A DNA stretch of 64,000 nucleotides from the NCBI RefSeq assembly GCF_000331735.1, contig NC_020126.1, forward strand, positions 1,302,001 through 1,366,000, written 5' to 3'. Position 1 is the stretch's first letter, and every line of letters begins with the position of its first letter. Positions 5,922 to 60,910 of the stretch are shown in pieces. The stretch is from Myxococcus stipitatus DSM 14675. Its GTDB lineage: Bacteria > Myxococcota > Myxococcia > Myxococcales > Myxococcaceae. The translations under genes and the position numbers were made by a program. Below the pieces are notes generated by a model. The model worked only from the letters and a program-made list of their open reading frames with translations, did no database searches and was not told the DNA's origin.

Positions 5922-7144
5922 GGCAGGACTCCTGTCTCGACGGCGAGCTGCACGCGGGCGAGCGCGGCCTGGAGGTGGCTGTCGAGCAGCGCGATGCGCG
6001 TCTCGAGGGTTTCACGGCGGACGAGGAGGAGCTCCGCGAGGTCCATCTCCCCGGCCTCGTAGGACTTGCGCGCCAGGGCTTCGTTCTCGTCGAGGAGGGG
6101 CAGGGCGTCGCGCTCGAGGACCTGGAGCGACTGCTGGCGCTTCGTGTCGCGGATGCGCGCGGCCTCCACCTGGATGTCGCGCGCCCTGCGAGCGGTCTCC
6201 AGCGCCGTGCGCAGTCGCCGCACCCGCGCATCCTGCGTCACGGTGTCCTCCTGTCCTCGCGAGAAGACAGGCAGCGGCACGCTGAGGGTGCCGAGCACCG
6301 CGGACTCATCCACCTCGCTCTCGTAGCGCACGCCCAGGCTGACGTCGGGCCAGCGCTGGCTCTTGCCCAGGCGCAGCTCCGCCTCCGCCTGCGCGAGCCC
6401 TGACTCCAGCGCGACGATGTCCGCGCGCTCGTGAGACGAAGGCGCGGGCACCGGGAGCGACGCGAGCTCGCGGAGGCTGCCGCGCACCGTGAGCGGCTCC
6501 TCGAGCGGGAGGCCCAGCAGCACGCGCAGCTCACCGAGCGAGATGCTCTCCTCGCCCTCCGCCACGGCCACCGCGGCGTGGGTCCTGGCGAGCGCCACCC
6601 GCGTCACGTTGGCGTCGACGACGGGGACATCTCCCGCCTCGAGGCGCTTCTTCGTGGACTCGGCCAGGTGCTTCGCGGCCTCTTGCGTCTCGTGCAGCAA
6701 CCGCGACAGCTCGCGGGCGTGGAGTGCGCGGAGGAAGGCCGCGCCCACTTCGCCGAGCACGCGGCGCTCGGTGTCGCTCTTCTCGGCGCTCTGCCTCGCG
6801 AGGCCCGCGCGCGCGGACTCACGTCGCGCGCCTTGCTTGCCCCCCAACTCGAAGGGCTGACTGAGCCCCACGGAGAACTGGGTGCCACGCCTGCCGGCGT
6901 CCAGCTTGCGAGGCCCCACCTCGGCGCTGAGCGTGGGGTTCTCGCGCAAGAGGGGGCTGGCGCCAGCGACGGGGCCTTGGGCTTCGGCGACAAGGTCCTC
7001 CGCTTCCCGCAACGCGGGGGCTCGCGCTCGGGCCAGGGCCAGGGCGTCTTGGAAGGACAACTCGGAGGGAAGGGCGGCGCTGGCGCGTGGCCAGACGAGG
7101 GCCGCGGCGAGCACACAGGCCGCCGTCGCGGAGAGGTTGGGCAC
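5918..7144 (-). CDS. Outer-membrane efflux channel, TolC/CzcC family
   Basis: A 408-residue outer-membrane factor of the metal exporter. A cleavable signal (MPNLSATAACVLAAAL, then ASA) is followed by two TolC-type repeats, each beginning with a helical stretch such as LSFQDALALARARAPALREA, and long Ala/Leu/Arg-rich helices typical of the periplasmic tunnel. There is no lipobox. The start is GTG at 7144 with gaggt about 8 nt upstream on the minus strand. The stop codon overlaps the adaptor start by 4 bp. Gene order from 5' to 3' is channel, adaptor, pump, as in czcCBA operons. Confidence 0.9.
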   Translation of the reverse strand: MPNLSATAACVLAAALVWPRASAALPSELSFQDALALARARAPALREAEDLVAEAQGPVAGASPLLRENPTLSAEVGPRKLDAGRRGTQFSVGLSQPFELGGKQGARRESARAGLARQSAEKSDTERRVLGEVGAAFLRALHARELSRLLHETQEAAKHLAESTKKRLEAGDVPVVDANVTRVALARTHAAVAVAEGEESISLGELRVLLGLPLEEPLTVRGSLRELASLPVPAPSSHERADIVALESGLAQAEAELRLGKSQRWPDVSLGVRYESEVDESAVLGTLSVPLPVFSRGQEDTVTQDARVRRLRTALETARRARDIQVEAARIRDTKRQQSLQVLERDALPLLDENEALARKSYEAGEMDLAELLLVRRETLETRIALLDSHLQAALARVQLAVETGVLP

Positions 7145-14781: not shown

Positions 14782-15615
14782 TCAGGCGGAGGCCTTCGGT
14801 TGCGGGGCCGCGCGCTCGAGCAGCACGGCCCGGCTGTCCACGTTGAGCACCTGGACTCCGCTCGCGAGCGTGGCGAGCGGGGAGTCCCAGTGGGCGTGGC
14901 CGCAGACGACCAGCAGTCCCGTGCACTTCTGGACACATTCGCGGATGAGGGGACTGCCGCGCAGGTCGGTGCCCTCGACGTTGGGACCCTGGTGCAGCAC
15001 CAGCAGCTCGGGGCGCTCGCGCAGGGTGTCGCGGAGCAGCCGCAGATGAGTGGCCTCCTCTCGCCGCCCGGGCTTGTCGGAGTTGCCGATGATGGAGCCC
15101 ACGCCCGCGAAGCGCAGTCCCTCCAGCTCCACCACTTCGCCATCGAGCAGGTGGATGCCCGGCCGCTGCTGGAAGCGGGTCTGCTCGCGCGGCCCGCCGA
15201 ACGAGTCGTGATTGCCCGCCACGCCCACCACCCAGCGGAAGTACCGGGCGAAGGCCTGCCAGACGGACCGCACATCGCCGGAGGCCCCGCGCACATTCGC
15301 GCCAGGGGCCGAGTACAGGTCCCCCGCGAGCACCACGCCCACGCTCCCCGGGGGCGGCAGCTCTCCCAGCTCGCCGAGCAGCGCGACCTCGTCGGCCAGC
15401 ATCTCTCCGAGCAGGGTCATCTCTCCATCGAAGACCCGATGGGGCGCGACGCCCTGGAGGTCGGAGAGCACGAGCAGCGCGGAGACGTCGTCGGGGAGCA
15501 CGTCCACCGTGCCGCGCAGCAGCGGGAACCACGCGGTGCGGGTTCCACCGCGCGGCGCGGCCTCGAGGTAGGGCCAGCGTTGGCTGGGTGAGTCATCCAA
15601 AGTCAGGATTCGCAT
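14782..15615 (-). CDS. Metallophosphoesterase (calcineurin-like) with a non-standard first motif
   Basis: A 277-residue enzyme of the two-metal phosphoesterase superfamily, probably cytoplasmic because no signal is visible. Motifs in order are LSDLQG (Asp52), AGDLYS, GNHDSF, LHQGPN and CGHAHWD, which match D-x-H / GD / GNHD / H / GHxH. The exception is the first motif, which reads D-x-Q (Gln54) instead of D-x-H, so one metal ligand is changed. The ATG at 15615 (MRILTL) is chosen because the core fold starts here. An upstream extension of 25 residues has no support. The substrate is unknown. It converges on lhr. Confidence 0.82.
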   Translation of the reverse strand: MRILTLDDSPSQRWPYLEAAPRGGTRTAWFPLLRGTVDVLPDDVSALLVLSDLQGVAPHRVFDGEMTLLGEMLADEVALLGELGELPPPGSVGVVLAGDLYSAPGANVRGASGDVRSVWQAFARYFRWVVGVAGNHDSFGGPREQTRFQQRPGIHLLDGEVVELEGLRFAGVGSIIGNSDKPGRREEATHLRLLRDTLRERPELLVLHQGPNVEGTDLRGSPLIRECVQKCTGLLVVCGHAHWDSPLATLASGVQVLNVDSRAVLLERAAPQPKASA

Positions 15616-15664
15616 GAGCGCCCAGGTCGGGCGCCTCTCCGCGTTCCTGACACCAGCAGTCCGC

Positions 15665-16225
15665 TCAGAGAATGCTGGGCGCGCTCCCACGCAGCATGAA
15701 GAACACCACCACGCCCGTCACCGACACGTACACCCAGATGGGCGCCAGCCACCGCGTCACCTTGCGGTGCCGGGTGAACTCCTTGCGCCACGCGAAGTAG
15801 AACGCCACCAGCGCCAGCGGCACCACGCCCATGGACAGCAGCACGTGGCTGGCCAGGATGCACAGGTACAGCCCGCGCCAGTCACCCGCGTAGCGCGTGT
15901 CGCCGTGCACGTAGTGGTAGGCGAGGTAGCAGACCAGGAAGAGCGCCGACGCCGCGAAGGCCGCCACCATCAAGTACTGGTGCACACGCCGCGCGCCCTT
16001 CTTGATGGCCACCCAGCCCGCGATGAGCAGCGCCGCCGCCGTCGCGTTGAGGCTCGCGTTGACGGACGGAAGGAAGCGCAGATCCACGCCCTCCACCCCC
16101 GCGCGCTGCCCCAGGAGGATCCACGCAATGAATGCGAGTGCGGCTACGGAGATAACGCCAGTGAAAACGTAGAAAGCCCGGTCAGTGACGCGGGGTTCGA
16201 GCGAAGCGGACGGGGCGTTCGACAT
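15665..16225 (-). CDS. DUF420 family integral membrane protein
   Basis: A 186-residue membrane protein of the DUF420 (YozB/CtaM-like) family. Five predicted TM helices include FYVFTGVISVAALAFIAW, ATAAALLIAGWVAI, MVAAFAASALFLVCYLAY, HVLLSMGVVPLALVAFYF and PIWVYVSVTGVVVFFML. Family features visible are FLPSVNASLN before TM2, conserved His residues (VHQYL, YHYVHG, ILASHVLL) and FTRHRKVTRW before the last helix. Family members have been linked to cytochrome oxidase assembly, and the conserved His residues would fit heme or metal handling. No oxidase genes are in this window. It is divergent from the exported five-gene operon. Confidence 0.85.
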   Translation of the reverse strand: MSNAPSASLEPRVTDRAFYVFTGVISVAALAFIAWILLGQRAGVEGVDLRFLPSVNASLNATAAALLIAGWVAIKKGARRVHQYLMVAAFAASALFLVCYLAYHYVHGDTRYAGDWRGLYLCILASHVLLSMGVVPLALVAFYFAWRKEFTRHRKVTRWLAPIWVYVSVTGVVVFFMLRGSAPSIL

Positions 16226-16288
16226 GGGGGCCTATCTCTCGCGTCGCGCCCCTCGATGCAACCAACGCCGTCTCATCTTCCAATGAAA

Positions 16289-16300
16289 CCGACATGTCGG
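16289..16300. promoter_or_regulatory. 12-bp perfect palindrome upstream of the exported-protein operon
   Basis: ccgacatgtcgg is self-complementary and ends 13 bp before the candidate -35 element at 16314. It also lies 64 bp upstream of the divergent DUF420 start. It could be an operator serving either gene. No regulator is identified. Confidence 0.35.
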
Positions 16301-16313
16301 ATGAACGAAAAAA

Positions 16314-16342
16314 TTAGCCTGACTGGATTCTCACCCTGTAAT
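16314..16342 (+). promoter_or_regulatory. Candidate sigma-70-type promoter for the five-gene exported operon
   Basis: TTAGCC at 16314-16319 and TGTAAT at 16337-16342 (five of six bases match TATAAT) are spaced 17 bp apart. They sit in a locally AT-rich stretch that stands out in this GC-rich window. Transcription would begin near 16349, leaving a leader of about 47 nt before the GTG at 16396. Confidence 0.45.
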
Positions 16343-16384
16343 TCTTGCATACTCCGTTCCAGTCGCCCCCGACATCCCCTCCAC

Positions 16385-16390
16385 GGAGGT
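16385..16390 (+). promoter_or_regulatory. Ribosome-binding site that selects a GTG start
   Basis: ggaggt is followed by 5 nt and the GTG at 16396. An alternative in-frame TTG at 16345 has no such site and would put an unlikely Pro/Ser-rich segment before the signal peptide. Confidence 0.7.
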
Positions 16391-16395
16391 CCCCC

Positions 16396-18444
16396 GTGCT
16401 CGCCGAGCGTTGCCTCGCCATCATGGCTGGCGTCGCCTTGTTACTGGCCCAACCCGTCTCTGCCCAAGAGGCGGCGGTTTGTGCGCCTGTCGCGAAGGTC
16501 CGCCCCGAACGACATTTGAGGCAGTTGACGCTTGACCTGCTGGGTCGACCTCCCACCTGGGAGGAGTACAAGGCGGTCCAGGCGAAGGGGGCGGTGTCGC
16601 AAGAAGACATCCGCGCGATGCTGGGCACCGAGGCCTTCTACACGCGCGTGCGCAACTTCCACCGCGCGCTCTTGCGCTCGAACATCAGCGCCAGCGTCTT
16701 CAACAACGGCAACTCGCGGCTGGGAGGCAACGGCACCACCGCCCCGTTCGGCTTCGCGAACAACCCCACCGTGTCGCTGCGTGGAACCAACAACCAGACG
16801 TGCAACGCTGAAATCGAGCAGAGCGCGTGCCAGGCGACGACGCAGGACCCGCACATCTTCGACGAGTTCCCGGTGCCGGGGCGCAAGTGCCATGACGACA
16901 TGGGCGTGCCCATGCCGGTCAGCTTCGACTACGACACCAACTTCTACACGTGCACGGAGTTGGGCGCCGCGACGGGGAACGTGGCGACGGACTGCTCCGA
17001 GCTGAAGGTAGCCCCCACGGACGCGAACAAGTGGCCCCGCTACCGCTACTTCTGTGACAAGCGCCAGGTGAGCGGTGTCACCAAGTCCTATCTGTGCCTG
17101 CCGGACAAGACCAAGAGCACCACAGCCGCGCTGTCGAAGGAGGTCGAGGACGCCAACAAGTACGTGGTGTCCTTCGACCACCCGGACCCCGCATCGAAGC
17201 CCGCACTCACGACGCTGAAGCGCTGCACGCTGGACCTGAACCTGAACAACAACATCCGGGGCTCCTACGTCTCCTCCTCGCGGGGCTGCATCCAGCGCGA
17301 GGGCTACGTGACGAAGCCCGCGGGTTATTGGGCGCCTCCGGGCGCGCCGACGACCGTGAAGGTGTGCGCCATCGAGGCCCAGGAGCGGGACTTCAACCCC
17401 TGGACGCGCGACTCGTGTGAGACGGCCCGCTTCGTCAATGACCGCAGCTGCGGGTGCGGCGTGGGCATGCGCCGCTGCGAGGTCCCCAACATCGGCACGG
17501 TGGCGACGGACCCGCTGTACGTGCGCAACGTGCATGACCTGCGCGTGGCCGCCATCAACGAGGAGCCGCTGCGCATCGCCGAGTCGGTCGTCCGCCTGGA
17601 CGAGCCCTACTACAACATCCTCACCACGCGCCGCTCCTACGTGAACGGCACGCTGGCGGAGTACTTCCGGCAGCGCCAGGGCGTGGGCGTCTTCAGCATC
17701 ACCGCCCCCGCGCCGGTGGAGGCCATCCCCGCGGTTCCGTACAACGACAACACCACGTGGAAGGAATACATCCGCGACGAGGCGCACTCCGGGGTCCTCA
17801 CGACGCCGTCGTTCCTCTACCGCTTCCCCACGCACCGCGCCCGCGTCGCCGAGTTCTACGAGGCCTTCCTCTGCAAGACCTTCGTGCCCGGCCCGGAGGC
17901 GTCCCTGCCCGCGCCCGAGGATGCGTGCAACCGCGAGAACAACCTGGCCAGGCGCTGCGGCTGCAACTACTGCCACGCCACCATCGAGCCCACGGGCGCG
18001 CACTGGGGCCGCTACGCCGAGCGCGCCGCGCAGTTCCTGCCGCCCACGCAGTTCCCCCGGTTCGACCCGAAGTGCCGCGACTGCGCCATCAACGGCGACA
18101 CCAACTGCGGCGGCGAGTGTAGCCAGTACATCATGCAGGCGTACGACGGCGACGGCGCCAGCAGCCTGGGCCTGCTCAAGACGTACCTGTACCGCACGTC
18201 CGACGAGGAGCAGAACATCGAGGCGGGCCCGCGGCTCCTGGTGGAGCGCATGTACCAGTCGGGTGAGCTGGAGCGCTGCACGGTGAAGCGCGTCTGGAAC
18301 GAGTTCCTCGGCCGGCCGATGACGGCGGAGGAGCAGCGCATGTACCTGGCCCCGCTCGCCAGCGACTTCGCCAAGAGCGGCCATCGCTTCAAGACGCTCG
18401 TGGAGCGCGTGGTGTCCACCGACGCCTACCGGAGGATTGACTGA
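16396..18444 (+). CDS. Exported planctomycete-type cytochrome protein (DUF1549/DUF1588-like)
   Basis: A 682-residue secreted protein and first gene of a five-gene set. The signal peptide runs through MAGVALLLAQPVSAQ. Near the N-terminus, LRQLTLDLLGRPPTWEEY resembles DUF1549. The middle is Cys-rich (SCGCGVGMRRCEVP). Around 470-545 a DUF1588-like region reads HSGVLTTPSFLYRFPTHRAR, then CGCNYCHATIEPTG, containing one CXXCH heme-attachment motif at 523-527. More Cys pairs follow (CRDCAINGDTNCGGEC). The C-terminus (VWNEFLGRPMTAEEQRMYL) resembles the terminal domain of the same family. A c-type heme is expected, with the protein in the periplasm or outside the cell. The stop overlaps the next start by one base. 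The family's function is not established. Confidence 0.8.
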   Translation: MLAERCLAIMAGVALLLAQPVSAQEAAVCAPVAKVRPERHLRQLTLDLLGRPPTWEEYKAVQAKGAVSQEDIRAMLGTEAFYTRVRNFHRALLRSNISASVFNNGNSRLGGNGTTAPFGFANNPTVSLRGTNNQTCNAEIEQSACQATTQDPHIFDEFPVPGRKCHDDMGVPMPVSFDYDTNFYTCTELGAATGNVATDCSELKVAPTDANKWPRYRYFCDKRQVSGVTKSYLCLPDKTKSTTAALSKEVEDANKYVVSFDHPDPASKPALTTLKRCTLDLNLNNNIRGSYVSSSRGCIQREGYVTKPAGYWAPPGAPTTVKVCAIEAQERDFNPWTRDSCETARFVNDRSCGCGVGMRRCEVPNIGTVATDPLYVRNVHDLRVAAINEEPLRIAESVVRLDEPYYNILTTRRSYVNGTLAEYFRQRQGVGVFSITAPAPVEAIPAVPYNDNTTWKEYIRDEAHSGVLTTPSFLYRFPTHRARVAEFYEAFLCKTFVPGPEASLPAPEDACNRENNLARRCGCNYCHATIEPTGAHWGRYAERAAQFLPPTQFPRFDPKCRDCAINGDTNCGGECSQYIMQAYDGDGASSLGLLKTYLYRTSDEEQNIEAGPRLLVERMYQSGELERCTVKRVWNEFLGRPMTAEEQRMYLAPLASDFAKSGHRFKTLVERVVSTDAYRRID

Positions 18445-19118
18445 TGCGCCGCCTGCTCTTGACCGCCGCGCTCGTCGTCCTGAGCGCCGGCTGCAGCAAG
18501 TCCGAGGAAGCGAAGTCCGGCCCCACGCAGGACGGGACGCTCGAGCCGGTGGCCAACCCCCACCAGCCCGGGGACTTCGAGCCGCTGCCGGACCCGGAAG
18601 CCCAGGGTGGCAGCGTGGGCCGCGCGCCGCGCCGGCTCACCGTCGCGCAGCTCGACGCCGCCATTCAGGAAGCCGTGGGCCGCCGCTGGGGCGGAAGTGA
18701 CGGCATCGATGCTCGCGCCACGTCGCTGGGCCGCGCTGACTTCGCGCTGGTGGCCAGCGAGAACACCGAGCCGAACCTGGTGTTCGCCAAGTTCCTGGAG
18801 GACGGCGCGCGTGTCGTGTGTATCGGCCAGGCCGCGGACGAGGTGAAGCTGACGGACGCGTCCAAGCGGACGCTGTCCCGCACGCTCCCTGGCACATGGG
18901 ATGACCTGCGCAAGCTGTCGAGTGCGCAGGTCAATGAGTTCCTGGTCTACAACTCGTTGCGCTTCTGGGGTGCTCCTCTGGAGGGCGAGGAACTGACGAA
19001 GTGGGCCCGTTTCTTCACCCAGGCGGCTGCCCGGGCGGAGACGGCCAAGCGGCGGTCGGATGTGTTGGCGGTGATGTGCATCGCCATGCTGACCGATTCG
19101 CGGTTCATCACCTACTGA
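18444..19118 (+). CDS. Lipoprotein of the cytochrome/DUF1501 operon
   Basis: A 224-residue lipoprotein (MRRLLLTAALVVLSAGC, Cys17 in the lipobox). After a Pro/Gly-rich linker it has PRRLTVAQLDAAIQEAVGRR, recalling the RRLT start of DUF1587, and it ends VLAVMCIAMLTDSRFITY, recalling the 'LxSPRFLY' end of DUF1592. It may therefore be a compact or split relative of the planctomycete multi-domain proteins. That relation is by pattern only. It starts at the stop of the preceding gene (TGATG), so the two are coupled. No heme motif is present. Confidence 0.7.
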   Translation: MRRLLLTAALVVLSAGCSKSEEAKSGPTQDGTLEPVANPHQPGDFEPLPDPEAQGGSVGRAPRRLTVAQLDAAIQEAVGRRWGGSDGIDARATSLGRADFALVASENTEPNLVFAKFLEDGARVVCIGQAADEVKLTDASKRTLSRTLPGTWDDLRKLSSAQVNEFLVYNSLRFWGAPLEGEELTKWARFFTQAAARAETAKRRSDVLAVMCIAMLTDSRFITY

Positions 19119-19135
19119 AGCGCGGAGTGACTCCG

Positions 19136-20536
19136 ATGAAGAAGAATCGCCTCGACGAGAATCACCGTCCAGAGCGCCGCACCTTCCTCAAGGCCGCGGC
19201 GGGATTCATGGGCTCCACGCTGTTCGGTGGCGTGCCCTTCCGTGCCTTCGCGCAGGCGGCCACGCTGGCGCCGGCCGACCGTTGCTTCGTCTTCGTGTAC
19301 TTCAACGGCGGCTGGGACCAGCTGCTCGCCTTCGACCCGAAGGACCCGGATGAGTTCACCCCGGACCGCGCGGCCGAGACGCGCATCCTCCCGGGCTACA
19401 ACCTCATCAACGACCCGGCGCGCTTCTCCACGATTCCCCTGCGCCCGGAGCTGCCGGGCGTGGGTCGCTCCAACATCGACTTCGGTCCCGCGGTGGGTCG
19501 CCTGGCGAACCACTTCGACCTGATGACGGTGGTGCGCGGCATCAACATGAACACGCTGGGCCACGAGGTGGGCTACCGCTACTTCCTCACCGGGAAGATG
19601 CCCATCGGCAGCGCGGCGCGTGGCTCCTCCACGGCGACGGAAATCGTGGGGCAGATGAAGCCCCGCGTGCCCATCTCCAACATCGCCTTCAACGTGGAGT
19701 CGTACAACGACCGCTACCCCGGCTACGCCAACGCCCTGCGCGTCAGCCGCAAGGATGACCTGCTGCTCACGCTCAAGCCCAGCTCGCAGCTGCTGGACAG
19801 CGACATCGAGAAGCAGCTCACCGACTTCCGCGGTCAGCCCATCACCTGCGAGCAGGCCGCCTACGGCGCGCGCGGCGTGGGCACCACGTACCAGAACAGC
19901 CGCGACCAGATGCACCAGGTGATGGCGCAGCAGATGGAGTCGTCGTTCCGCTTCGAGGCGAACAACGAGGAGATGGAGGAGGTCCGCCGCCGCTACGGGC
20001 TGGACCAGGGCGGGCGCTACGACACCGAGGCGGGCCGCGCCGCGATGGTGGCCACCGCGCTCAAGAAGGGCATCGCCCAGTGTGTCACCATCAACCTCAC
20101 GGGCGGCCTGGACACGCACTTCGGCTCGCAGCTCGTCCATGCCTCCAACCAGCGCCGAGGCTTCGACGCGCTCGCCAGCCTGGTGGACGACCTGCGCAAG
20201 TCCGACCACCCGAGCGGCGGGAAGTTCATGGACCACACCACCATCATGGTGTTCTCCGAGTTCTCCCGCACGCCGCTCATCAACAGCGCCGGCGGCCGCG
20301 ACCACCACCTGTGCAACTCCTGCATGATCATGGGCGCGGGCGTGAAGCACAACTACGTCTTCGGCCGCAGCGGTGACATCGGCATGTCGCCGGGCACGTT
20401 CGACCTGCGCAACGGCGCGTCGGACCCCAACGGCGAGAACATCTTCCCCGAGCACGTCATCGCCACGGTGTTGGCGTCGGCGGGCCTGGACTACAGCATC
20501 ACCCGCGTGGAGCCCCTCCGTCCCATCCTCGCCTGA
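19136..20536 (+). CDS. DUF1501 family protein with a Tat signal
   Basis: A 466-residue protein exported by the twin-arginine route: RRTFLK at 14-19, then a hydrophobic stretch and AFAQA. Family features include VYFNGGWDQL near the start of the mature chain, NMNTLGHEVGYRY, the segment NLTGGLDTHF, VFSEFSRTP, and GGRDHHLCNSCMIMG near the C-terminus. These place it in DUF1501, a relative of the alkaline-phosphatase/sulfatase fold. In planctomycetes such genes typically pair with DUF1549/DUF1800-type partners, as here with DUF1549-like genes. Tat export implies folding, perhaps with a cofactor, before transport. It lies 17 bp after the preceding lipoprotein. The substrate is unknown. Confidence 0.9.
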   Translation: MKKNRLDENHRPERRTFLKAAAGFMGSTLFGGVPFRAFAQAATLAPADRCFVFVYFNGGWDQLLAFDPKDPDEFTPDRAAETRILPGYNLINDPARFSTIPLRPELPGVGRSNIDFGPAVGRLANHFDLMTVVRGINMNTLGHEVGYRYFLTGKMPIGSAARGSSTATEIVGQMKPRVPISNIAFNVESYNDRYPGYANALRVSRKDDLLLTLKPSSQLLDSDIEKQLTDFRGQPITCEQAAYGARGVGTTYQNSRDQMHQVMAQQMESSFRFEANNEEMEEVRRRYGLDQGGRYDTEAGRAAMVATALKKGIAQCVTINLTGGLDTHFGSQLVHASNQRRGFDALASLVDDLRKSDHPSGGKFMDHTTIMVFSEFSRTPLINSAGGRDHHLCNSCMIMGAGVKHNYVFGRSGDIGMSPGTFDLRNGASDPNGENIFPEHVIATVLASAGLDYSITRVEPLRPILA

Positions 20537-20541
20537 ATCGC

Positions 20542-22101
20542 ATGAGCACCCATCCCCGAGCCCCCCGTAGGACCGACGGGGGGCGGCGTGCCTCCCTCGT
20601 CTTCCTCCTCCCCCTCTGCGCCGCCGTCGTCCTCTCCGCGTGCGGCGATGACTCGCTTCCGCTGGACCGGCCTCGGCCCACCTCCTTCCGGCCCACCGAG
20701 GTCCGGGCGAAGACGACGTTGGCGTCCGCGCCGGGCTTCGCGGACCAGTCCGGTGGCGGCATCTTCGCCAACACGGCGGGCGGCGTGGTGCGTCTGCGAT
20801 TGGACGGCTCGCTCGCCGCGCTGGCGCCACACCCTGGCAACAGCGCCGCGCTGGGCCGGGTGAACGCCGTCTTCCGGATGGGGCCTCACAGCGCGCTGGT
20901 GGAGGCGGAGAACGGCCTCTTCCTCGCGGAGTCGGGGTGGCTCATCTCCCCGCCGTGGCGCGACGCGCTGGGCCTGGGCATCACCGCCACCACGCAGTCC
21001 GCGGATGGCGCGGTGTGGCTGGCGCATCCCACGGGGCTCTTCCAGCTGCGCGGTGGCGCGCTCTCCGCGCTGAAGGTGAAGGGCGAGGCGCTCACCGGCA
21101 TCACCGCGCTGGCCGCGGCGCCCACGGAGGATGGGTCCGCCGGGGTGTGGTTCCTGCGCGACGGGAAGCTGAACGTCGCGGTGGCCACCAGCCTGATGAA
21201 CTTCGAGGTGCACGAGGAGCGGCCGCCCCTGGAGAAGGGCGAGGTGGTGGAGTCCCTGGCGGGTCTGGGCGCGGGCGTGGGCACGGCGGGGGAGCTGTGG
21301 CTGCTCACCAACCAGGGCTTGCTGCGCAGGCCGCGCGAGGGCTGGCGGCGGGTGTCCTTGCCGCAGCGGCCCGTGCAGCTGCTCGCGTCGGGGCGCTTCC
21401 TGTGGGTGAAGTCGAGCGACGCGCTGCTGCTGTTCGACGCGGACTCCGACGAGTGGGGGCTCGCGCAGGGCCTGGACACGCGGGAGTTCCGCTTCCTGTC
21501 CGCGGACGAGAGCGGCTGTGCGTGGGTGCAGGTGGGGGGCGAGACGGTGGCGGTGAGCCGCGCTCCGGCGCCGCGCGTGTCGGGACTCCACCAGGGCATG
21601 CAGGTGGTGGAGGACGGGTTGGTCGTGCGCGCGGTGATGCCGCCCGGCGTGGACCCGGAGGAGGTGGTGTTCCAGGTGGGCGGCGCGGAGTTCCCCGCCA
21701 GCGGCGAGGGCCCCGTGTACAGCCTGGGAGGCCAGGAGGCGGACGGCACGCCGAAGCCGTACTCCTTCGTGGGCCTGCCCTCGGGACGCCAGTCGTTGAG
21801 CGTGGTGGCGCGCTTCCTGGATGGCACGGAGGCCCGGCGCCGGGTGCCCTTCGACTACCAGCCGGTGAGCACCGTGGCGCTGAGCTGGGCGACGGACATC
21901 CGCCCCATCCACCTGGCGCGCTGTGAGAAGTGCCACGCCACCGGCCCGGGCCGCACGCTGAACACCTACGAGCTGTGGCGGGAGAACGCGACGCTCATCA
22001 CCGCCGCGGTGAGAGACCAGCGCATGCCCGCCGACGGACCCTTGGACTCGCAGCTCACCTCCCTCATCCAGCGCTGGGCCGCGTCCGGCGCGAAGCCCTG
22101 A
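20542..22101 (+). CDS. Propeller-like lipoprotein with a C-terminal monoheme cytochrome domain
   Basis: A 519-residue lipoprotein (LVFLLPLCAAVVLSAC lipobox). Residues about 60-350 show repeated short beta-strand motifs such as GGIFANTAGGVVRLRLDG, NGLFLAESGW, TGLFQLRGGAL and GVWFLRDGKL, suggesting a beta-propeller like two-component-regulator or PQQ types. A beta-sandwich-like region follows. The last 70 residues form a planctomycete-type cytochrome domain: IRPIHLARCEKCHATG with CXXCH at 461-465, and QRMPADGPLDS, whose Met could be the distal heme ligand. It sits 5 bp after the DUF1501 gene. A role in electron transfer or ligand sensing at the cell surface is inferred. Confidence 0.78.
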   Translation: MSTHPRAPRRTDGGRRASLVFLLPLCAAVVLSACGDDSLPLDRPRPTSFRPTEVRAKTTLASAPGFADQSGGGIFANTAGGVVRLRLDGSLAALAPHPGNSAALGRVNAVFRMGPHSALVEAENGLFLAESGWLISPPWRDALGLGITATTQSADGAVWLAHPTGLFQLRGGALSALKVKGEALTGITALAAAPTEDGSAGVWFLRDGKLNVAVATSLMNFEVHEERPPLEKGEVVESLAGLGAGVGTAGELWLLTNQGLLRRPREGWRRVSLPQRPVQLLASGRFLWVKSSDALLLFDADSDEWGLAQGLDTREFRFLSADESGCAWVQVGGETVAVSRAPAPRVSGLHQGMQVVEDGLVVRAVMPPGVDPEEVVFQVGGAEFPASGEGPVYSLGGQEADGTPKPYSFVGLPSGRQSLSVVARFLDGTEARRRVPFDYQPVSTVALSWATDIRPIHLARCEKCHATGPGRTLNTYELWRENATLITAAVRDQRMPADGPLDSQLTSLIQRWAASGAKP

Positions 22102-22114
22102 CCGAGTCACGTCC

Positions 22115-25100
22115 ATGAATCGAATCGTTCGCGCGGCCCCCCTCCTCGCGCTCCTCGCCGGCGCCTGCTCGGATGAGCTGGACCCGGCGCGTGAAGTCCC
22201 CCTGCCGCCTCCCGTGGACCAGTGCACGGGGCTGCCTCCGGTCGCCCTGCGCGCCGAGCCCGTCCGCGTGCGCGTGGGCAACCCCGTGGCGCTGGTGGCC
22301 TCCGGAGGCAGCGGCCAGTACCGCTACGTGCTCCAGGAGGGAGGCTCGTCCGGAGAGCTGCGCGCGGACCGCTTCGTCGCGGGACACACGCCGGGCAGGG
22401 ACACGCTGGTGGTGGAGGATGCGCGCTGCCCCGGGGACGCGCGCGTCACGGTGGAGGTGCTGGCGCCCTTCGACATCGCTCCGGCTCGCGCGGACGTGCG
22501 GCCCCAGACGACCTTCCAGGTGGCGGCGCGGGGCCTGCTGGGACCGGCGACGTTCAGCCTGACGCAGAGTGGCTCCGGCGCCACGCTCTCTCCGGAGGGC
22601 CGCTACACGGCGGGCACCGGCGAGGGCCTGGACCTCATCACCGTGCGCGACTCGCAGACGGGGGACGAGGCGGTGCTCCAGTACAACGTGAGCCGGACGG
22701 CGCGGCTCGCCGGAGCGCCCGCGTACCTCGCGGTGCCGTCGGGCTCCTCCGTGCCGCTGGGCACGCGCGGTGGCAGCGACGCGGTGGTGTGGACGAAGGT
22801 GTCGGGGCCCGGGACGCTCGCGCCCGGACGCATCGGCTTCCAGCCCGGGGACACGGGCGTGGCCGTGCTGGAGGCGGCGGACCCGTTCACCGGGGACAAG
22901 GCGGCGGTGACGGTGGTGGTGATGGACGAGCTGACGCGGCCGACGCAGGCGCACGGCCGGCTCAGCGATGTGGCCTCGCTGGTGACGGCGGACTTCGACG
23001 GCGACGGCATCCAGGACCTCGCGGTGGGACAGCGCGAGAGCGACATGGGCGCGCCGGTGAGCGGCGGGGCCGTGTTCATCTACAAGGGCGGCAGCGGCGG
23101 ACTGGATGCGAAGCCGCTGTGGGTGCTCGAGGGGACCACCGAGTCCGCGTTCTTCGGTGAGGTGCTGGCCGCGGGGGACCTGGACGGTGATGGCCGCGCG
23201 GAGCTGGTGGTGTCCTCGCCCGGCGCCGACGTCGCCATCAACAACGCCGGCGCGGTGTATCTGTATACGTTCAAGGGCGGCTCGCCCGCGCCGCTGCGCT
23301 CGCCGCTCGCCGGACTGCTGGCCAGCTCCGCGTTCGGCGCGGGCCTGTCCGTGGCGGACGTGAATGGGGACGGACGGATGGACCTGGTGGTGGGGACTCC
23401 CGCGGGGGACCTGGCGCCCACCAGCGCCATCCGCGCGCGCGGCACGGTGGACATCTACCTGTCGACGCCCAGCGCGCCCGTGCCGGACCTGCCCAGCATC
23501 CGCCTGGGAGGCTCGGACCTCTCGCGTGAGGGGGCCCCCATGGCGCGCTCGAGCACGGACCTGGGGCGCGCGCTGGTGGCGGCGGACTTCAACAAGGACG
23601 GGCGCCTGGATATCGCGGCGCTCAGCCGGGTGAGTCGCTACGCGGCGGACGGCAGCATCCCGGGGATGCAGGTGACCATCTCCGTCTTCTTCGCGCGCGC
23701 CGAGGGACAGCGCTTCCGCGCGACGCCGGATGTCTATGTGCTGCCCGCCAACCTGGCGGACGCGAACGAGGGGACGTGGCGTCTGTCCTCCGTCGCGGGT
23801 GACGGGACGCGGCCCCCGCTGTTGATGGCGGTGGCGGACCGCGCGGACTCGCCGGACCTGAGCACCAGTGGCGGCGTGAAGTCCGGTGGAGACGCGGGCG
23901 GGGTGCTGCTGTTCGACCTGAGCGGCTTCACGCCCACGGGGGACCCGGTGGCCACGCCTCCCCAGGTGAAGCGCGAGGAGGCCTTCGCGCGCATCTATGG
24001 CGATGCGTCCGGCATCGTCGCGGGGCGCAGCTTCGCGGTGCTGGACGTGGACGGCGCTCCGGGGCCGGAGCTGCTGCTGGGCGCGCCGTACGCCGCGCCG
24101 CCCGCTCCGGGCAACACGACGCTGCGCTTCGGCGGCAAGGTGCTGGTGTACCCGCTGGCGACGCTGACGAAGGGCGCCCTCATCAACAAGCCGCTGACGG
24201 CGCTCAACGGCGTGGCGAAGTCGGAGACGCTGGGCGCGGGGCTCGCGGCGTGGCGCTTCTCGGATGGGGAGTCGCTGGCGGTCGTCGCGGGCCGCGCCTC
24301 CACGGACCAGGGTGTCTTCACCGGCCGGGTGGAGCTGTTCCGCAGGGCGGGCGCGTCGCTGGCGGAGTGGACGCGCAGCACCTCCAACGTCCCGGCGATG
24401 CCCAGCACGGAGCTGGTGGGCAACCAGGTGGCCGTGGCGGTGGGGCCTCGCGGGAGCGTGGCGCTGCTGGGCGCGCAGGGGTGGTCCGGTCCAGGCGTCA
24501 ACGCGGATGGCGACGCGATGGGCATTGGCCGCGCCTATGTGCGCGACGTGGCCCGAGGCGCGACGGCCCTGGTGGTGGAGGAGGGTGCCCCCACTCCGCA
24601 CAAGGCGGGGCGCATGGTGGGCACGGACGTGGCCTTCACGGACTTCAACGGGGACGGCATCCCGGACACCGCCGTGGGCGCGCAGACCTTCTTCGCACCC
24701 GCCAGCAACAGCGCGGAGATTGCCGCGACCTACCACACGAACCGCGCGGAGTGCTTCACCACCGGGACGCAGACCGTGGGCGGCGTGTTGGTCTCGCTGG
24801 GACAGGCGGACGGCACGTACAAGCCCGCCTACCGGCTGTGGGCGCCCAACCAAATCACGGGCTGCGTGCCGGACACGGACGCGCGCTGCAAGCGCACGAA
24901 CATGGGCCGCGGAGTCGTGGGCGGCTTCGACTTCAACGGCGACGGGAAGGAAGACCTGGGCGTGCTGCGCGACCGGGGCATGGAGGTCTTCCTGGGCCGC
25001 GCGCCGGATGACGCGTCGCTCTCGAAGCTCACCCTGGGGTGCAACCCCGTCTACTCGTGGCCCTCCATCGGCCTCAACACCTTCGCCCCCACGAACCTGG

Positions 25101-25855
25101 GAGACATCAACGCGGATGGCTGCGCCGACCTGGCGTGGCGGTACGCGGAAGGGGCCCGCTCCGGCGTGGCCATCCTCCTGGGCTACGACGCGGGAGGCGC
25201 CAAGTGCGGTGGACGCACGACGCCCACCGTGTGGCGCATCGCGGGAGACAGCGAGGCGCAGCTCAACAACATGGGCCTGGGCGTGGCCATCGCCCGCGCG
25301 GGCAAGCTCATGCGCAACCCCAACGGCACCGGGGACACGCGCGACTTCCTCGCCGTCAGCGCCAGCGCCGTCGTCTTCAACAGCGTCACGCAGCCCGTGG
25401 TGCTCCTCTTCGACCTGGCGCAGCTGCGCACGGTGATGGCCAACAAGCAGACCGACAGCCTGCCCCTCGTCGCGGGGGCCCTGGGCGACGGGCTCACCCC
25501 CGTGGTGGTGGTGCACCAGACGCGCGCGGTGTTCTTCGGCTCCTCGCTGGCGGGGAACCTGGACCTGTCGGGCGATGGCGTGGAGGACCTGGTCGTCGGC
25601 GCGTATGGCGCTTCGGTGGCCTCGGATGGCGGCGGCGCCGTGTTCATCTACGCGGGCACTCCCAACATGGGAGGCGCGCTGTCGCCCTTCCTCACCGTGG
25701 CGGGGGATGTCTCGGAGCGCAGCCAGGTGGGGATGGAAGTCGCGGTAACCCCTGGAAAGGGAGGAACACCTCCAACGCTGGTGATTGGCGCGCCGGCGAG
25801 CTACCGGACGGGGACGCGGAACGGGACGGCGTACGTGCTGCCGCTGCGCTTCTAG
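22115..25855 (+). CDS. Large FG-GAP/Ig-like repeat lipoprotein
   Basis: A 1246-residue lipoprotein (LLALLAGAC lipobox, Cys18). Residues about 40-285 contain three Ig-like repeats (for example VRVGNPVALVASGGSGQYRY). From about 290 to 1160 there are roughly nine FG-GAP/integrin-alpha-like blades, each with a calcium-loop pattern: ADFDGDGIQDLAVG, GDLDGDGRAELVVS, ADVNGDGRMDLVVG, ADFNKDGRLDIAAL, LDVDGAPGPELLLG, TDFNGDGIPDTAVG, FDFNGDGKEDLGVL, GDINADGCADLAWR and LDLSGDGVEDLVVG. This predicts calcium-stabilised beta-propellers used for binding at the surface. It is the last gene of the five-gene set, 13 bp after the cytochrome lipoprotein. The ligand is unknown. Confidence 0.85.
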   Translation: MNRIVRAAPLLALLAGACSDELDPAREVPLPPPVDQCTGLPPVALRAEPVRVRVGNPVALVASGGSGQYRYVLQEGGSSGELRADRFVAGHTPGRDTLVVEDARCPGDARVTVEVLAPFDIAPARADVRPQTTFQVAARGLLGPATFSLTQSGSGATLSPEGRYTAGTGEGLDLITVRDSQTGDEAVLQYNVSRTARLAGAPAYLAVPSGSSVPLGTRGGSDAVVWTKVSGPGTLAPGRIGFQPGDTGVAVLEAADPFTGDKAAVTVVVMDELTRPTQAHGRLSDVASLVTADFDGDGIQDLAVGQRESDMGAPVSGGAVFIYKGGSGGLDAKPLWVLEGTTESAFFGEVLAAGDLDGDGRAELVVSSPGADVAINNAGAVYLYTFKGGSPAPLRSPLAGLLASSAFGAGLSVADVNGDGRMDLVVGTPAGDLAPTSAIRARGTVDIYLSTPSAPVPDLPSIRLGGSDLSREGAPMARSSTDLGRALVAADFNKDGRLDIAALSRVSRYAADGSIPGMQVTISVFFARAEGQRFRATPDVYVLPANLADANEGTWRLSSVAGDGTRPPLLMAVADRADSPDLSTSGGVKSGGDAGGVLLFDLSGFTPTGDPVATPPQVKREEAFARIYGDASGIVAGRSFAVLDVDGAPGPELLLGAPYAAPPAPGNTTLRFGGKVLVYPLATLTKGALINKPLTALNGVAKSETLGAGLAAWRFSDGESLAVVAGRASTDQGVFTGRVELFRRAGASLAEWTRSTSNVPAMPSTELVGNQVAVAVGPRGSVALLGAQGWSGPGVNADGDAMGIGRAYVRDVARGATALVVEEGAPTPHKAGRMVGTDVAFTDFNGDGIPDTAVGAQTFFAPASNSAEIAATYHTNRAECFTTGTQTVGGVLVSLGQADGTYKPAYRLWAPNQITGCVPDTDARCKRTNMGRGVVGGFDFNGDGKEDLGVLRDRGMEVFLGRAPDDASLSKLTLGCNPVYSWPSIGLNTFAPTNLGDINADGCADLAWRYAEGARSGVAILLGYDAGGAKCGGRTTPTVWRIAGDSEAQLNNMGLGVAIARAGKLMRNPNGTGDTRDFLAVSASAVVFNSVTQPVVLLFDLAQLRTVMANKQTDSLPLVAGALGDGLTPVVVVHQTRAVFFGSSLAGNLDLSGDGVEDLVVGAYGASVASDGGGAVFIYAGTPNMGGALSPFLTVAGDVSERSQVGMEVAVTPGKGGTPPTLVIGAPASYRTGTRNGTAYVLPLRF

Positions 25856-29113: not shown

Positions 29114-30643
29114 ATGAAGCGGTGGGTCATACTCGCGGCGATGGCGGTTGTAGCAACGGGCTGTGCGACGTTGCGCAGCGACCTGGAGATTCCGGACCGG
29201 GAGGCCATCTACGACCGGCCCCTCGACGAGATGTGGCCGGAGGTCCGGGAGTTCTTCACGCGCAATGAGCTGCCGTTCCGCGAGGACCGGGGCAGCATGG
29301 TGCTGGAGACGGAGTGGCGGCAGGAGTTCGGCGGCTCGAAGATCGCCGGCTTCTTCCATCGCTACATGGTCGTGGGGCGGCGGGAGACGCCGACCGCGAG
29401 CAAGCTCCAGATCTTCCGCATCACCAAGAGCCTGAACAAGGCGATGTCCATCGCTGGCAAGGAGCTGGACTGGGGCACCTCGCGCACCCTGTTCGCGGGA
29501 GCGGGGAGCGCCGGTGGCGGCAGTGGAGCGCAGGAGACCAGCCCCGAGGACTGGGAGGAGGTCATCGCGGCGCCGCGTGGCGAGAACTCCTTCTTCGCGG
29601 AGTCGGGCCAGGGCCAGCGGGACCTGGTGATGGAGTGGCGGGTGTTCCGCGACGTGTCGCCTCGGCTGGCGAAGGAGGAGAGCGCGCCGAAGCCGGTGAG
29701 GGTGGCCAAGGCGCCGTCGGCGACGAGCGCGCCGTCCCAGATGGCGATGGAGTGTGGCCTGCCCATCCTGGGATTGGGCAAGCAGGCGAAGCCTGGCGCG
29801 GTGCTGCTGTTGGGCGAGCTGCACGGCACCGAGGAGGTTCCTCGCTTCGTGGCCCAGTCCGCGTGTCAGGCCGTGGTGGCGGGAATCCCGGTGACGGTGG
29901 GACTGGAGCTGCCGCTGGAGAACCAGACGCGCGTGGATGCCTTCCTGGAGAGCGCGGGGGCGGAGCAGGACTGGCTGAAGCTGATGGAGTCACCGTTCTG
30001 GCGCAGCCCGTATCCGGATGGCCGCGGCAGCGAGGCGATGGCGAACCTGATGGAGCAACTGCGGCTGCTGCGCTCGCGCGGGCTGGACGTGGAGGTCTTC
30101 GTGTTCGACCACCCGAAGGCGAACGGGCAGGAGCGCGAGAACGCGATGGCGGCGACGGTGGTGCACCAGGTGGAGTCGTCCCCCACGCGCTTCCACATGA
30201 TTCTCTCCGGCAACATCCACTCTCGGACGAAGAAGGGGCTGCCCTGGGATGAGCAGCGCAAGCCGATGGGGTACCTGGTCAGCGAGAAGCTGGATGACGT
30301 GGTGGCGCTGGACATGGCGTATGACAGCGGCACGGCGTGGATCTGCTCGGTGGACGGCAAGGGCATTCGCGACAGGCTGGACTGCGGGGTGCGGGACACC
30401 AAGGGCCGCAACAACGGCGACCGGTACTTCATGCACCTCTGGGGTTCTGCGAACGCGGAGGGCTACCACGGGGTCTTCTACGTGGGGCCGGTGAAGGCCT
30501 CGGAGCCCGCGGTGCATCGAGGACTGGGGCGACCCGGCGCCAACGACAACTCCGTGCATCCCGCGAGCGACGAGGCGCGCAGGATGGCCTCGGTGCGTGA
30601 CGATATGTCGGGAAGTTCCCTTCGTTCTGGCGTCCTGCGGTGA
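29114..30643 (+). CDS. Lipoprotein with C-terminal TIKI/ChaN-like domain, copy 1
   Basis: A 509-residue lipoprotein (lipobox VATGC, Cys17). Residues about 20-125 form a helix-grip-like region (AIYDRPLDEMWPEVREFF) reminiscent of BamC-type lipoproteins, by pattern only. A variable Gly/Ser-rich linker follows. Residues about 218-480 resemble the TIKI/EreA/ChaN superfamily, with two GX2H motifs, GELH at 234-237 and GNIH at 366-369, plus conserved acidic residues (VGLELPLE). Members are proteases, esterases or heme-binding proteins, so chemistry cannot be chosen. Copy 2 follows immediately, with very high identity over most of its length. Copy 1 has an extra C-terminal tail (after MASVR) that seems to come from a one-base shift through the ancestral stop. 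Confidence 0.75.
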   Translation: MKRWVILAAMAVVATGCATLRSDLEIPDREAIYDRPLDEMWPEVREFFTRNELPFREDRGSMVLETEWRQEFGGSKIAGFFHRYMVVGRRETPTASKLQIFRITKSLNKAMSIAGKELDWGTSRTLFAGAGSAGGGSGAQETSPEDWEEVIAAPRGENSFFAESGQGQRDLVMEWRVFRDVSPRLAKEESAPKPVRVAKAPSATSAPSQMAMECGLPILGLGKQAKPGAVLLLGELHGTEEVPRFVAQSACQAVVAGIPVTVGLELPLENQTRVDAFLESAGAEQDWLKLMESPFWRSPYPDGRGSEAMANLMEQLRLLRSRGLDVEVFVFDHPKANGQERENAMAATVVHQVESSPTRFHMILSGNIHSRTKKGLPWDEQRKPMGYLVSEKLDDVVALDMAYDSGTAWICSVDGKGIRDRLDCGVRDTKGRNNGDRYFMHLWGSANAEGYHGVFYVGPVKASEPAVHRGLGRPGANDNSVHPASDEARRMASVRDDMSGSSLRSGVLR

Positions 30644-30659
30644 GTCTCCTGGAGGTGGC

Positions 30660-32114
30660 ATGATGCGATGGTCTGTCCTCGCGGTTCTGGCGGGTGCATT
30701 CGTGGTGACCGGCTGCGCGACCTGGCGCAGCGACCTGGAGATTCCGGACCGGGAGGCCATCTACGAGCAGCCCCTCGAGATGGTGTGGCCGGAGGTCCGG
30801 GAGTTCTTCACGCGCAATGAGCTGCCGTTCCGCGAGGACCGGGGCAGCATGGTGCTGGAGACGGAGTGGCGGCAGGAGTTCGGCGGCTCGCGCATCGCGG
30901 GCTTCTTCCACCGGTACATGGTGGTGGGGCGCCGCGAGACGCCGACGTCGTGCAAGCTGCAGATCTTCCGCATCACCAAGAGCACTGGCAGGACGCTGTC
31001 CGCCCCCGGCAGCGAACTGGGCTGGGGCCAGACGGCGGGAAGGACCGAGGGCCTCTCTCCGGAGGACGATGGCAACTTCGGTGCCCCTCAGGGAGAGGTC
31101 GCCGTCGCCGCGGGGTCGGGCCAGACGCAGCGAGACATGGTGATGGAGTGGCGGGTGTTCCGCGACGTGGACTCTCGGATGGCGAAGGACGAGAGCGCGC
31201 CGAAGCCGGTGAAGGTGGCCCGTGCCGCGAAGGCGACGAGCGCGCCTTCTCAGATGGCGGTGGAGTGTGGCCTGCCCATCCTGGGCCTGGGCAAGCAAGC
31301 GAAGCCCGGCGCGGTGATGTTGCTGGGGGAGCTGCACGGCACGCGCGAGGTCCCGCGCTTCGTGGCCCAGTCCGCGTGTCAGGCCCTGGTGGCCGGTGTT
31401 CCGGTGACAGTGGGGCTGGAGCTGCCGCTGGAGAACCAGACGCGCGTGGATGCCTTCCTGGAGAGCCCGGGGACCGATGACGACTGGCTGAAGCTGATGG
31501 AGTCGCCGTTCTGGCGCAGCCCGTATCCGGATGGCCGTGGCAGCGAGGGCATGGCGAACCTGCTGGAGCAGCTGCGCCTGCTGCGCGCGCTGGGGCTGGA
31601 TGTGGAGGTCTTCGTGTTCGACCACCCGAAGGCGAACGGGCAGGAGCGCGAGGACGCGATGGCGGCGACGGTGGTCCACCAGGTGGAGTCGTCGCCCACG
31701 CGCTTCCACCTGATTCTCTCCGGCAACGTCCACTCGCGGACGAAGAAGGGGCTGCCCTGGGACCCGGAGCGCAAGCCGATGGGCTACCTGGTCAAAGACA
31801 GGCTGGACGACGTGGTGGCGCTGGACATGGCGTACGACAGCGGCACGGCGTGGATCTGCTCGGTGGACAGCAAGGGCGTCCAGGACAAGCTGGACTGCGG
31901 GGTGCGGGACACCAAGGGGCGCAACAACGGCGAGCGGTACTTCGTGCACCTCTGGGAGTCGACGAACGGGGAGGGCTACCAGGGCGTCTTCTACGTCGGC
32001 CCGGTGAATGCGTCCTTGCCGGCGGTCCAGCGAGGGCTGGGGCGGCCTGGGTCGAACGACAACTCGGCGCACCCCGCTCGGGAGGGGGAGAAGTCGCTGG
32101 CGTCGACGCGGTGA
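30660..32114 (+). CDS. Lipoprotein with C-terminal TIKI/ChaN-like domain, copy 2
   Basis: A 484-residue paralogue of the preceding gene. The lipobox is VVTGC (Cys19), followed by the near-identical N-terminal module (RSDLEIPDREAIYEQPLEMV), a shorter divergent linker and the TIKI-like domain with GELH at 223-226 and GNVH at 355-358. It ends SLASTR and lacks the tail of copy 1. The start is ATG 30660 with a second ATG at 30663, preceded by ggaggtgg. It begins 16 bp after copy 1 and has its own duplicated leader, so it may be co-transcribed or separately driven. Divergence is concentrated in the linker and signal peptide, which suggests selection on both folded domains. Confidence 0.75.
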   Translation: MMRWSVLAVLAGAFVVTGCATWRSDLEIPDREAIYEQPLEMVWPEVREFFTRNELPFREDRGSMVLETEWRQEFGGSRIAGFFHRYMVVGRRETPTSCKLQIFRITKSTGRTLSAPGSELGWGQTAGRTEGLSPEDDGNFGAPQGEVAVAAGSGQTQRDMVMEWRVFRDVDSRMAKDESAPKPVKVARAAKATSAPSQMAVECGLPILGLGKQAKPGAVMLLGELHGTREVPRFVAQSACQALVAGVPVTVGLELPLENQTRVDAFLESPGTDDDWLKLMESPFWRSPYPDGRGSEGMANLLEQLRLLRALGLDVEVFVFDHPKANGQEREDAMAATVVHQVESSPTRFHLILSGNVHSRTKKGLPWDPERKPMGYLVKDRLDDVVALDMAYDSGTAWICSVDSKGVQDKLDCGVRDTKGRNNGERYFVHLWESTNGEGYQGVFYVGPVNASLPAVQRGLGRPGSNDNSAHPAREGEKSLASTR

Positions 32115-43106: not shown

Positions 43107-43205
43107 CGCTACTGCCTCCTTGGGTGGACGGAGACTGTCGCATGGAACGCCGTGCGCCGGGAGTACACCGGACGGCGGTGCCCGCGCGGGTGAAGTCCCC
43201 GACGC

Positions 43206-44903: not shown

Positions 44904-44937
44904 GGTGAAGTGCTCCCCGGGGCGCTGCGGCGGGCCG

Positions 44938-46287: not shown

Positions 46288-46502
46288 GGCGGGCTCACTA
46301 GCACAGGCGCCTGGGATGCGCGCGTTCCGGCCTCCAAGAAGGGTGTCCGGAGGGCTTCCAAGCAGTGGCGGAACGATGGACAACCCGCACCGGACACGGC
46401 ACGCTCGAAGCTGGTTTTCGCGGGTGTGGGTGAAGGTCGGGGCCGGCGGACGCCGGGTCGCCGCCGCACCCAGGCGCTCGCAGGCTCCAGGAGAGACAAG
46501 TC

Positions 46503-53661: not shown

Positions 53662-53667
53662 GCGCGG

Positions 53668-54816: not shown

Positions 54817-54891
54817 GGGGCTGCTCCGATGTTCGGTGGACCCCAGCAGACGCGCCTGGAGGGGTCAACCAAAGGGTGCGGTGTCCTCGAG

Positions 54892-56118: not shown

Positions 56119-56288
56119 GCACCCGGGACCGAATCAGACCCCTGTGGACCCGTCAATCCTGCTCCCCGCAATCCGGGTGACAGCCTCGACAGGAAATAGA
56201 GCTGGAATTCGAGATGGAGCTGTGTTCGCTGAGTCGTGCGAGAGGGCACGACGTCGTCGGTGATGGCGTCTGGCCATCAGGCCAGGGG

Positions 56289-57710: not shown

Positions 57711-57726
57711 GTGGAGCTGTGCCCGC

Positions 57727-58872: not shown

Positions 58873-58897
58873 GGAAGGCTCCGAGATGAGGTGGGGC

Positions 58898-60037: not shown

Positions 60038-60040
60038 GGC

Positions 60041-60709: not shown

Positions 60710-60910
60710 GGCCGACGGACCGTAGCCTCGCGGCTCCGTGAGGAGCAACCTTCGTGGTGAAGGGGCGAGCGAACAGCCGAGCCCTGGCGGCTGGTGGGAC
60801 GCGGTGCGCTGCTCTCGTTGCTTGTGAGGCCGGGGTGGGCCTCGTACCATCCGGCCACCTTTCGCGCGCTGGAGCGCGAGCGGAGGCCGGGAGCGGGCCT
60901 CACTCTTGCG

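Follow-up and report, generated by a model that had tools for sequence, protein, structure and literature searches.

The DNA analysed here, hereafter the window, is a 64,000-bp stretch of the Myxococcus stipitatus DSM 14675 chromosome (1.302–1.366 Mb within the 10,350,586-bp genome), and our subject is the five genes, p1 to p5, that lie on its forward strand between positions 16396 and 25855. These genes form one unit, vertically inherited as a single copy in nearly all large-genome Myxococcaceae, and they very probably encode a split and expanded version of the PSCyt/PSD-DUF1501 module. To the best explanation as a whole, i.e. this module, an envelope complex formed by its products and a redox-linked hydrolase mechanism, we assign a probability of about 0.5.

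Five exported proteins are encoded in tandem

All five genes are read from the same strand and their junctions are either a 1-bp overlap or gaps of 5–17 bp, so that the co-directional and tightly spaced layout described in a first-pass annotation of the window holds at the level of coordinates. The first gene, p1 (16396–18444, +; GTG start), encodes a Sec-exported protein of 682 amino acids and overlaps by 1 bp with p2 (18444–19118, +), which encodes a 224-residue lipoprotein. After a 17-bp gap comes p3 (19136–20536, +), encoding a Tat-exported DUF1501 protein of 466 residues, followed 5 bp further by p4 (20542–22101, +; lipoprotein of 519 residues) and, 13 bp after p4, by p5 (22115–25855, +; lipoprotein of 1246 residues). 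The succession of export signals reported earlier (Sec, lipobox, Tat, lipobox, lipobox) was likewise seen by inspection: a Sec-type signal peptide with the site VSA/QE in p1, the lipoboxes LSAGC, LSAC and AGAC in p2, p4 and p5, respectively, and the Tat signal RRTFLK in p3, both arginines of which are invariant in 43 relatives. The three lipoboxes argue for an envelope location.

p1 and p2 correspond to two halves of a PSD protein

Weak Pfam matches to DUF1549, DUF1592, DUF1588 and DUF1585 were found for p1, each common to 10–14 of 15 relatives, and p2 matched DUF1595 in 8 of 16 relatives (best value 0.0054). Along p1, a DUF1549-like N-terminus (residues 25–96) and a Cys-rich insert (~100–360) precede DUF1592 (365–424), a DUF1588 region with a CXXCH motif (466–540) and DUF1585 (611–677). 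The same genome encodes four single-gene proteins (L151–L154) in which the order is DUF1595-1592-1588-1585, with DUF1587 in front in three of them, L154 being without a DUF1587 match. Compared with the profile of these single-gene proteins, p2 aligns to residues 63–203, the DUF1587 and DUF1595 part (E = 3e−5, probability 74%), and residues 378–680 of p1 align to the DUF1592-1588-1585 part (E = 2e−10). As p2 thus fits the N-terminal half and p1 the C-terminal half, these alignments identify p2 and p1 as the DUF1587/1595 and DUF1592-1588-1585 halves, respectively, of such a protein, with a gene order reversed relative to the domain order; p1 carries the DUF1549-like start and the Cys-rich insert as extras. 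The first-pass annotation had proposed a PSCyt/PSD partner split over two genes, with DUF1587/1592-like and DUF1549/1588-like parts. The split stands; the allocation of domains does not, DUF1549, DUF1592, DUF1588 and DUF1585 being found in p1, and DUF1587 and DUF1595 in p2. We also considered p1 and p2 as duplicates of each other and rejected this, as homology between them was not found.

The CXXCH motif of p1, CNYCH (17962–17976, +; residues 523–527), is located where it had been placed before and is predicted to be a covalent heme site. A CXXCH motif is present in 57 of 57 relatives, and C523, C526 and H527 are invariant across 48 aligned sequences. An AlphaFold2 model of p1 was obtained with a mean predicted local distance difference test (pLDDT) score of 88.9 and a predicted template-modelling (pTM) score of 0.84. 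The best match of this confident model to the Protein Data Bank (PDB) by Foldseek had an E-value of only 4.6, and a sequence-profile search of the PDB gave no match; on this evidence, no solved structure appears to have the p1 fold.

p3 is a probable metal-dependent enzyme

For p3, Pfam recovers DUF1501 with an E-value of 6.8e−30. Pfam and the profile–profile matches agree on a DUF1501 protein beside a split PSCyt/PSD partner, as had been claimed. A PDB sequence search with p3 gave nothing useful. The predicted model (pLDDT 85) matched, among the top 50 Foldseek hits listed, sulfatases, phosphatases, alkaline phosphatase, NPP, LtaS and their relatives, the best fold match having an E-value of 1.6e−5 and probabilities reaching 1.0. 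On this model, p3 is assigned an alkaline-phosphatase-superfamily fold.

Four residues, D326, H328, D389 and H390, are invariant in 43 of 43 relatives and are predicted to be metal ligands. In the same 43 sequences, T140 is conserved in 40, H143 in 42, T152 in 41, G153 in 42 and P156 in 42. These residues belong to the motif T-x-x-H-x(8)-T-G-x-x-P, of which Thr140 (codon 19553–19555, +) is the predicted nucleophile; the p3 version, T-L-G-H-x8-T-G-x-x-P, appears to resemble the helix that bears the nucleophile in sulfatases and in nucleotide pyrophosphatases. A formylglycine sulfatase was rejected, as p3 is without the C/S-x-P-x-R motif and has T-L-G-H at that place. With a threonine at the nucleophile position, a phosphatase- or transferase-like enzyme is favoured over such a sulfatase. 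Overall, p3 is probably a metal-dependent phosphatase- or sulfatase-like enzyme.

p4 and p5 are propeller-type lipoproteins

The C-terminus of p4 is recognised as a mono-heme cytochrome c domain, the Cytochrome_CBB3 model being matched in 10 of 11 relatives (best 7e−6), which supports the earlier description of p4 as heme-carrying. Its CXXCH motif, CEKCH (21922–21936, +), occupies residues 461–465 as first reported, and is conserved in 42 of 43 relatives, the remaining one being truncated; the heme motifs of both p1 and p4 are thus kept among relatives. C461, C464, H465, R494, M495 and P496 are invariant (n = 11), and Met495, within RMPADGP, is the probable distal heme ligand. A PDB sequence search with the heme domain gave nothing useful. 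The remainder of p4 looks like a propeller, a propeller sensor being matched weakly in the PDB (E = 0.0035). From their sequences, p1 and p4 are probably both heme proteins; c-type cytochrome assembly genes are present.

p5 matches FG-GAP in Pfam with an E-value of 3e−44 over 8 stretches, contains 8 calcium-loop motifs, and has integrin alpha structures as its best PDB sequence matches. Its three Ig-like repeats are diverged, their pairwise scores being equalled by 1, 13 and 11 of 1000 shuffles. We read p5 as three Ig-like repeats followed by a calcium-binding, integrin-type FG-GAP propeller. The earlier description as about nine FG-GAP blades after three Ig-like repeats was correct in its architecture and not in its count, which is eight.

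With two propeller-type lipoproteins, one having a propeller sensor domain as its best structure match and the other being integrin-like, the operon could instead specify a structural or sensory surface complex, in which the hemes sense or stabilise, the binding of ligand or Ca2+ falls to the p4 and p5 propellers, and p3 has degenerated into a binding protein without catalysis. The invariance of the p3 metal ligands and the conservation of Thr140 argue for catalysis, however, and the operon is without a kinase or regulator, which makes this alternative unlikely.

The five genes are inherited as one unit

We scored full p1 orthologues and p5 in 96 Myxococcaceae genomes, and found them in 81 and 80 genomes, respectively: both in 80, p5 alone in none, neither in 15 (small genomes for the most part), and p1 alone in a single genome, which is 78% complete. 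Within the genus, p3 was found in 26 of 26 other genomes, with 80–99% identity (60 relatives); the order p1-p2-p3-p4 is the same in the loci of these relatives and the longer stretches show p5 too. Of the loci found by scanning 84,980 species genomes, 57 named ones were compared for gene order. In the orthologous loci among them, p1–p5 are retained, with p5 seen wherever the contig is long enough, except in one incomplete metagenome-assembled genome from which p4 and p5 are missing; M. xanthus AM003 carries the complete operon. Across 31 species, the five proteins have pairwise distances that correlate with one another at 0.93–0.97, which fits their joint vertical descent. The claim that the genes are inherited together, and so co-occur in other genomes, is therefore upheld. 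One record, BNCN01000002.1, titled Comamonas sp. KCTC 72670, contains a full myxobacterial operon (p1 identity 66%) and is probably mislabelled or contaminated.

The order kept across relatives, together with the co-occurrence of p1 and p5, indicates that the operon is not a chance arrangement. A mere conserved neighbourhood without joint function would draw on the synteny that Myxococcaceae retain, and the flanking EamA, LigD and SpoIIAA-like genes are indeed partly syntenic. These flanks drop out in other genera, however, while p1–p5 stay, the spacing is tight with one overlap, and other Myxococcota have the p1-p2-p3 core too, in divergent loci; such a reading is barely credible.

In six of these distant Myxococcota loci (L107, L108, L110, L113, L116 and L117), a gene for a p4-like propeller-cytochrome lipoprotein lies upstream of p1-p2-p3, and the p4 profile matches these upstream genes with an E-value of 9e−40. 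No p5 was found beside the distant cores; p1-p2-p3, accompanied in the six loci by a p4-like gene, thus seems to be a core that predates p5, which would have been added in Myxococcaceae. Two further observations concern the distant loci. Near the divergent core of L107, an open frame on the opposite strand (15058–17391, −) contains 15 calcium-loop motifs. In another Myxococcota family, a divergent p1-DUF1501 pair is followed immediately downstream by the gene for a 1138-aa RCC1-repeat propeller protein (L053, 4942–8355, −), which is a possible stand-in for the propeller partners.

Upstream region and neighbouring genes

A DUF420 membrane protein gene (15665–16225, −; Pfam E = 2e−42) diverges from p1, here and in the great majority of orthologous loci that have upstream sequence. 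It is a conserved neighbour that is not co-transcribed with p1–p5, and we take its product to be cytochrome-oxidase-assembly-like. This neighbour and the two heme motifs of the operon could point to a respiratory or detoxifying, peroxidase-like periplasmic complex tied to the DUF420 gene. Such a complex gives p3 and p5 no role, the adjacency may only be shared promoter space, and the role of DUF420 is itself presumed; we regard it as very unlikely.

Alignment of 18 intergenic regions, corresponding to the interval 16226–16395 between the DUF420 gene and p1, revealed a palindrome, CCGACATGTCGG (16289–16300, no strand), whose core ACATGTCGG is recognisable in many relatives and which is a possible operator. 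Upstream of p1, a conserved element of the form GTAATTC-N2-GCATACT, GTAATTCTTGCATACT (16338–16353, +), is a possible promoter, and the Shine–Dalgarno sequence CGGAGGT before p1 is invariant in 18 of the 18 aligned sequences. Neither sigma70 promoters nor clear terminators were found by a scan that is poorly suited to this genome.

Elsewhere in the window, a CzcCBA-like metal efflux operon of the resistance-nodulation-division type lies on the minus strand (1610–7144), and two tandem, near-duplicate lipoprotein genes (29114–32111), both with ...DLEIPDREAIYD/E...VREFFTRNELPFREDRGSM..., are NlpB/BamC-like by appearance. From the translations, 43200–62410 is a polysaccharide cluster with a Wzc-like tyrosine kinase (46503–48686), glycosyltransferases, a Wzy-like protein and a Wzx-like flippase (60794–62410); this cluster presumably resembles the biosurfactant polysaccharide (BPS) region of M. 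xanthus.

A proposed mechanism and its weight

We propose that p1 and p2 would pair in the envelope, rebuilding the all-in-one PSD protein known from the same genome, and that the lipid-anchored p4 would carry electrons between the heme at its own C-terminus and that in the DUF1588 region of p1. Exported in folded form by Tat, p3 would act as a metal-dependent enzyme, either a hydrolase or a transferase, whose nucleophile is a Thr and whose substrate is a polymer or lipid with anionic groups (phosphate or sulfate). The calcium-stabilised propeller and Ig-like repeats of p5 would bind the substrate or hold the complex together. The operon as a whole would then serve to modify or degrade, in a redox-linked manner, a polymer of the envelope or of the extracellular space. 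The first suggestion, that an extracellular substrate is degraded or undergoes redox chemistry, is plausible in general terms; that the five products form one envelope complex seems to us rather probable, and the redox-linked hydrolase mechanism itself is doubtful enough to be offered tentatively.

Several points weigh against this reading. The Pfam matches of p1 and p2 fall below the gathering cut-offs, the fold matches of p3 have low template-modelling scores (~0.35) and large root-mean-square deviations, and the correlated distances of the five proteins can merely reflect the vertical inheritance of neighbouring genes. We know of no PSCyt/PSD system in which a link between alkaline-phosphatase-superfamily catalysis and heme redox has been established. 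Finally, Pfam finds no carbohydrate-binding module in the five proteins, and an AA10 lytic polysaccharide monooxygenase (LPMO) is absent or below the cut-off in 26 of the 81 operon-bearing genomes.

The last two points also count against an electron-donor complex for oxidative polysaccharide cleavage, in which the cytochromes would feed LPMO-like enzymes, with p3 and p5 in binding or structural roles. Within Myxococcaceae, AA10 is confined to operon-bearing genomes, one being encoded in the same genome as p1–p5, and such a role has been proposed for Cellvibrio japonicus Cbp2D, the nearest system with biochemical data, for which PMC8981238 gives small X183/X132 cytochromes with a DUF1587 match and the reduction of LPMOs by its CjX183 cytochrome. 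A donor complex leaves the conserved catalytic motif of p3 unexplained, however, and the five proteins are also without a YceI domain in Pfam; we hold it to be quite unlikely. An obligate partnership with AA10 was rejected on the co-occurrence count.

Returning to the redox-linked hydrolase, its boldest form would be a hitherto unknown type of surface machine that serves predation or the remodelling of the matrix. Heme redox chemistry in the split PSD protein, with its unprecedented fold, would drive or gate a Thr140 enzyme of the alkaline-phosphatase superfamily, and a calcium-dependent propeller would direct that enzyme to its target; this is a long shot. If true, the numerous PSCyt/PSD-DUF1501/DUF1552 pairs in Planctomycetes and Verrucomicrobia would be explained by the same chemistry. 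The version of the module described here is conserved, present as one copy and divided into separable parts, and its lineage includes M. xanthus, where deleting genes is routine. Testable predictions are heme on p1 and p4, a p1–p2 complex, and Thr140 as the p3 nucleophile; a crystal structure of p1 would show a new fold for a widespread domain group.

Comparison with known systems

PSCyt/PSD genes were first described in Rhodopirellula baltica and have repeatedly been called functionally unknown; sometimes tied to carbohydrate-binding modules or sulfatases, they are, with DUF1501 genes, numerous in some Planctomycetes and Verrucomicrobia (PMC5615132, PMC2754498). A "DUF1501 module" in Planctomycetes–Verrucomicrobia–Chlamydiae (PVC) bacteria is attributed to Kamneva et al, 2012, as cited in PMC4452313 and PMC4960237. 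Our literature search found no paper linking Myxococcus to the PSCyt/PSD-DUF1501 module.

Among related arrangements, DUF1501-DUF1800 pairs, which travel with bacterial chitin synthase (PMC5122149), likewise combine a Tat-exported DUF1501 protein with a partner of unknown role, whereas the partner in the Myxococcaceae operon is PSCyt/PSD; a DUF1800-type partner was rejected, the similarity being marginal (E = 0.07 for one p1 relative, 1e−3 for one paralogue). Cbp2D is likewise exported and joins a small c-type cytochrome to a PSD domain; it differs by its CBM2, YceI-like and FN3 domains and, within the excerpted text, by the lack of a described DUF1501 partner (PMC8981238).

In the same genome as the operon, two paralogous loci (L056, near 3.23 Mb; L057, near 3.13 Mb) have p1-like, p2-like and DUF1501 genes in a row, and differ in that the p2-like domain has its own cytochrome, fused to it in one lipoprotein. 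A p4-like or p5-like gene was not recognised within the 16 kb inspected, and a PDB sequence search with the fused lipoproteins gave nothing useful. The single-gene proteins L151–L154 have the same domains as p1 and p2, with CXXCH in DUF1588, but are encoded by one gene, have strong Pfam scores and are without the DUF1549-like start or the Cys-rich insert.

As in the PSCyt/PSD-DUF1501 module itself, exported PSCyt/PSD proteins with CXXCH adjoin a gene for a DUF1501 protein, here Tat-exported. Unlike in that module, the PSD protein is not one polypeptide but is divided between p1 and p2, whose genes stand in reversed order, the cytochrome is carried by the propeller lipoprotein p4, and the FG-GAP protein p5 is added; the module is multi-copy, whereas the Myxococcaceae operon is single-copy and vertically inherited. 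The operon is a variant, old and well conserved, of a known but uncharacterised module, for which the function put forward here is a proposal.

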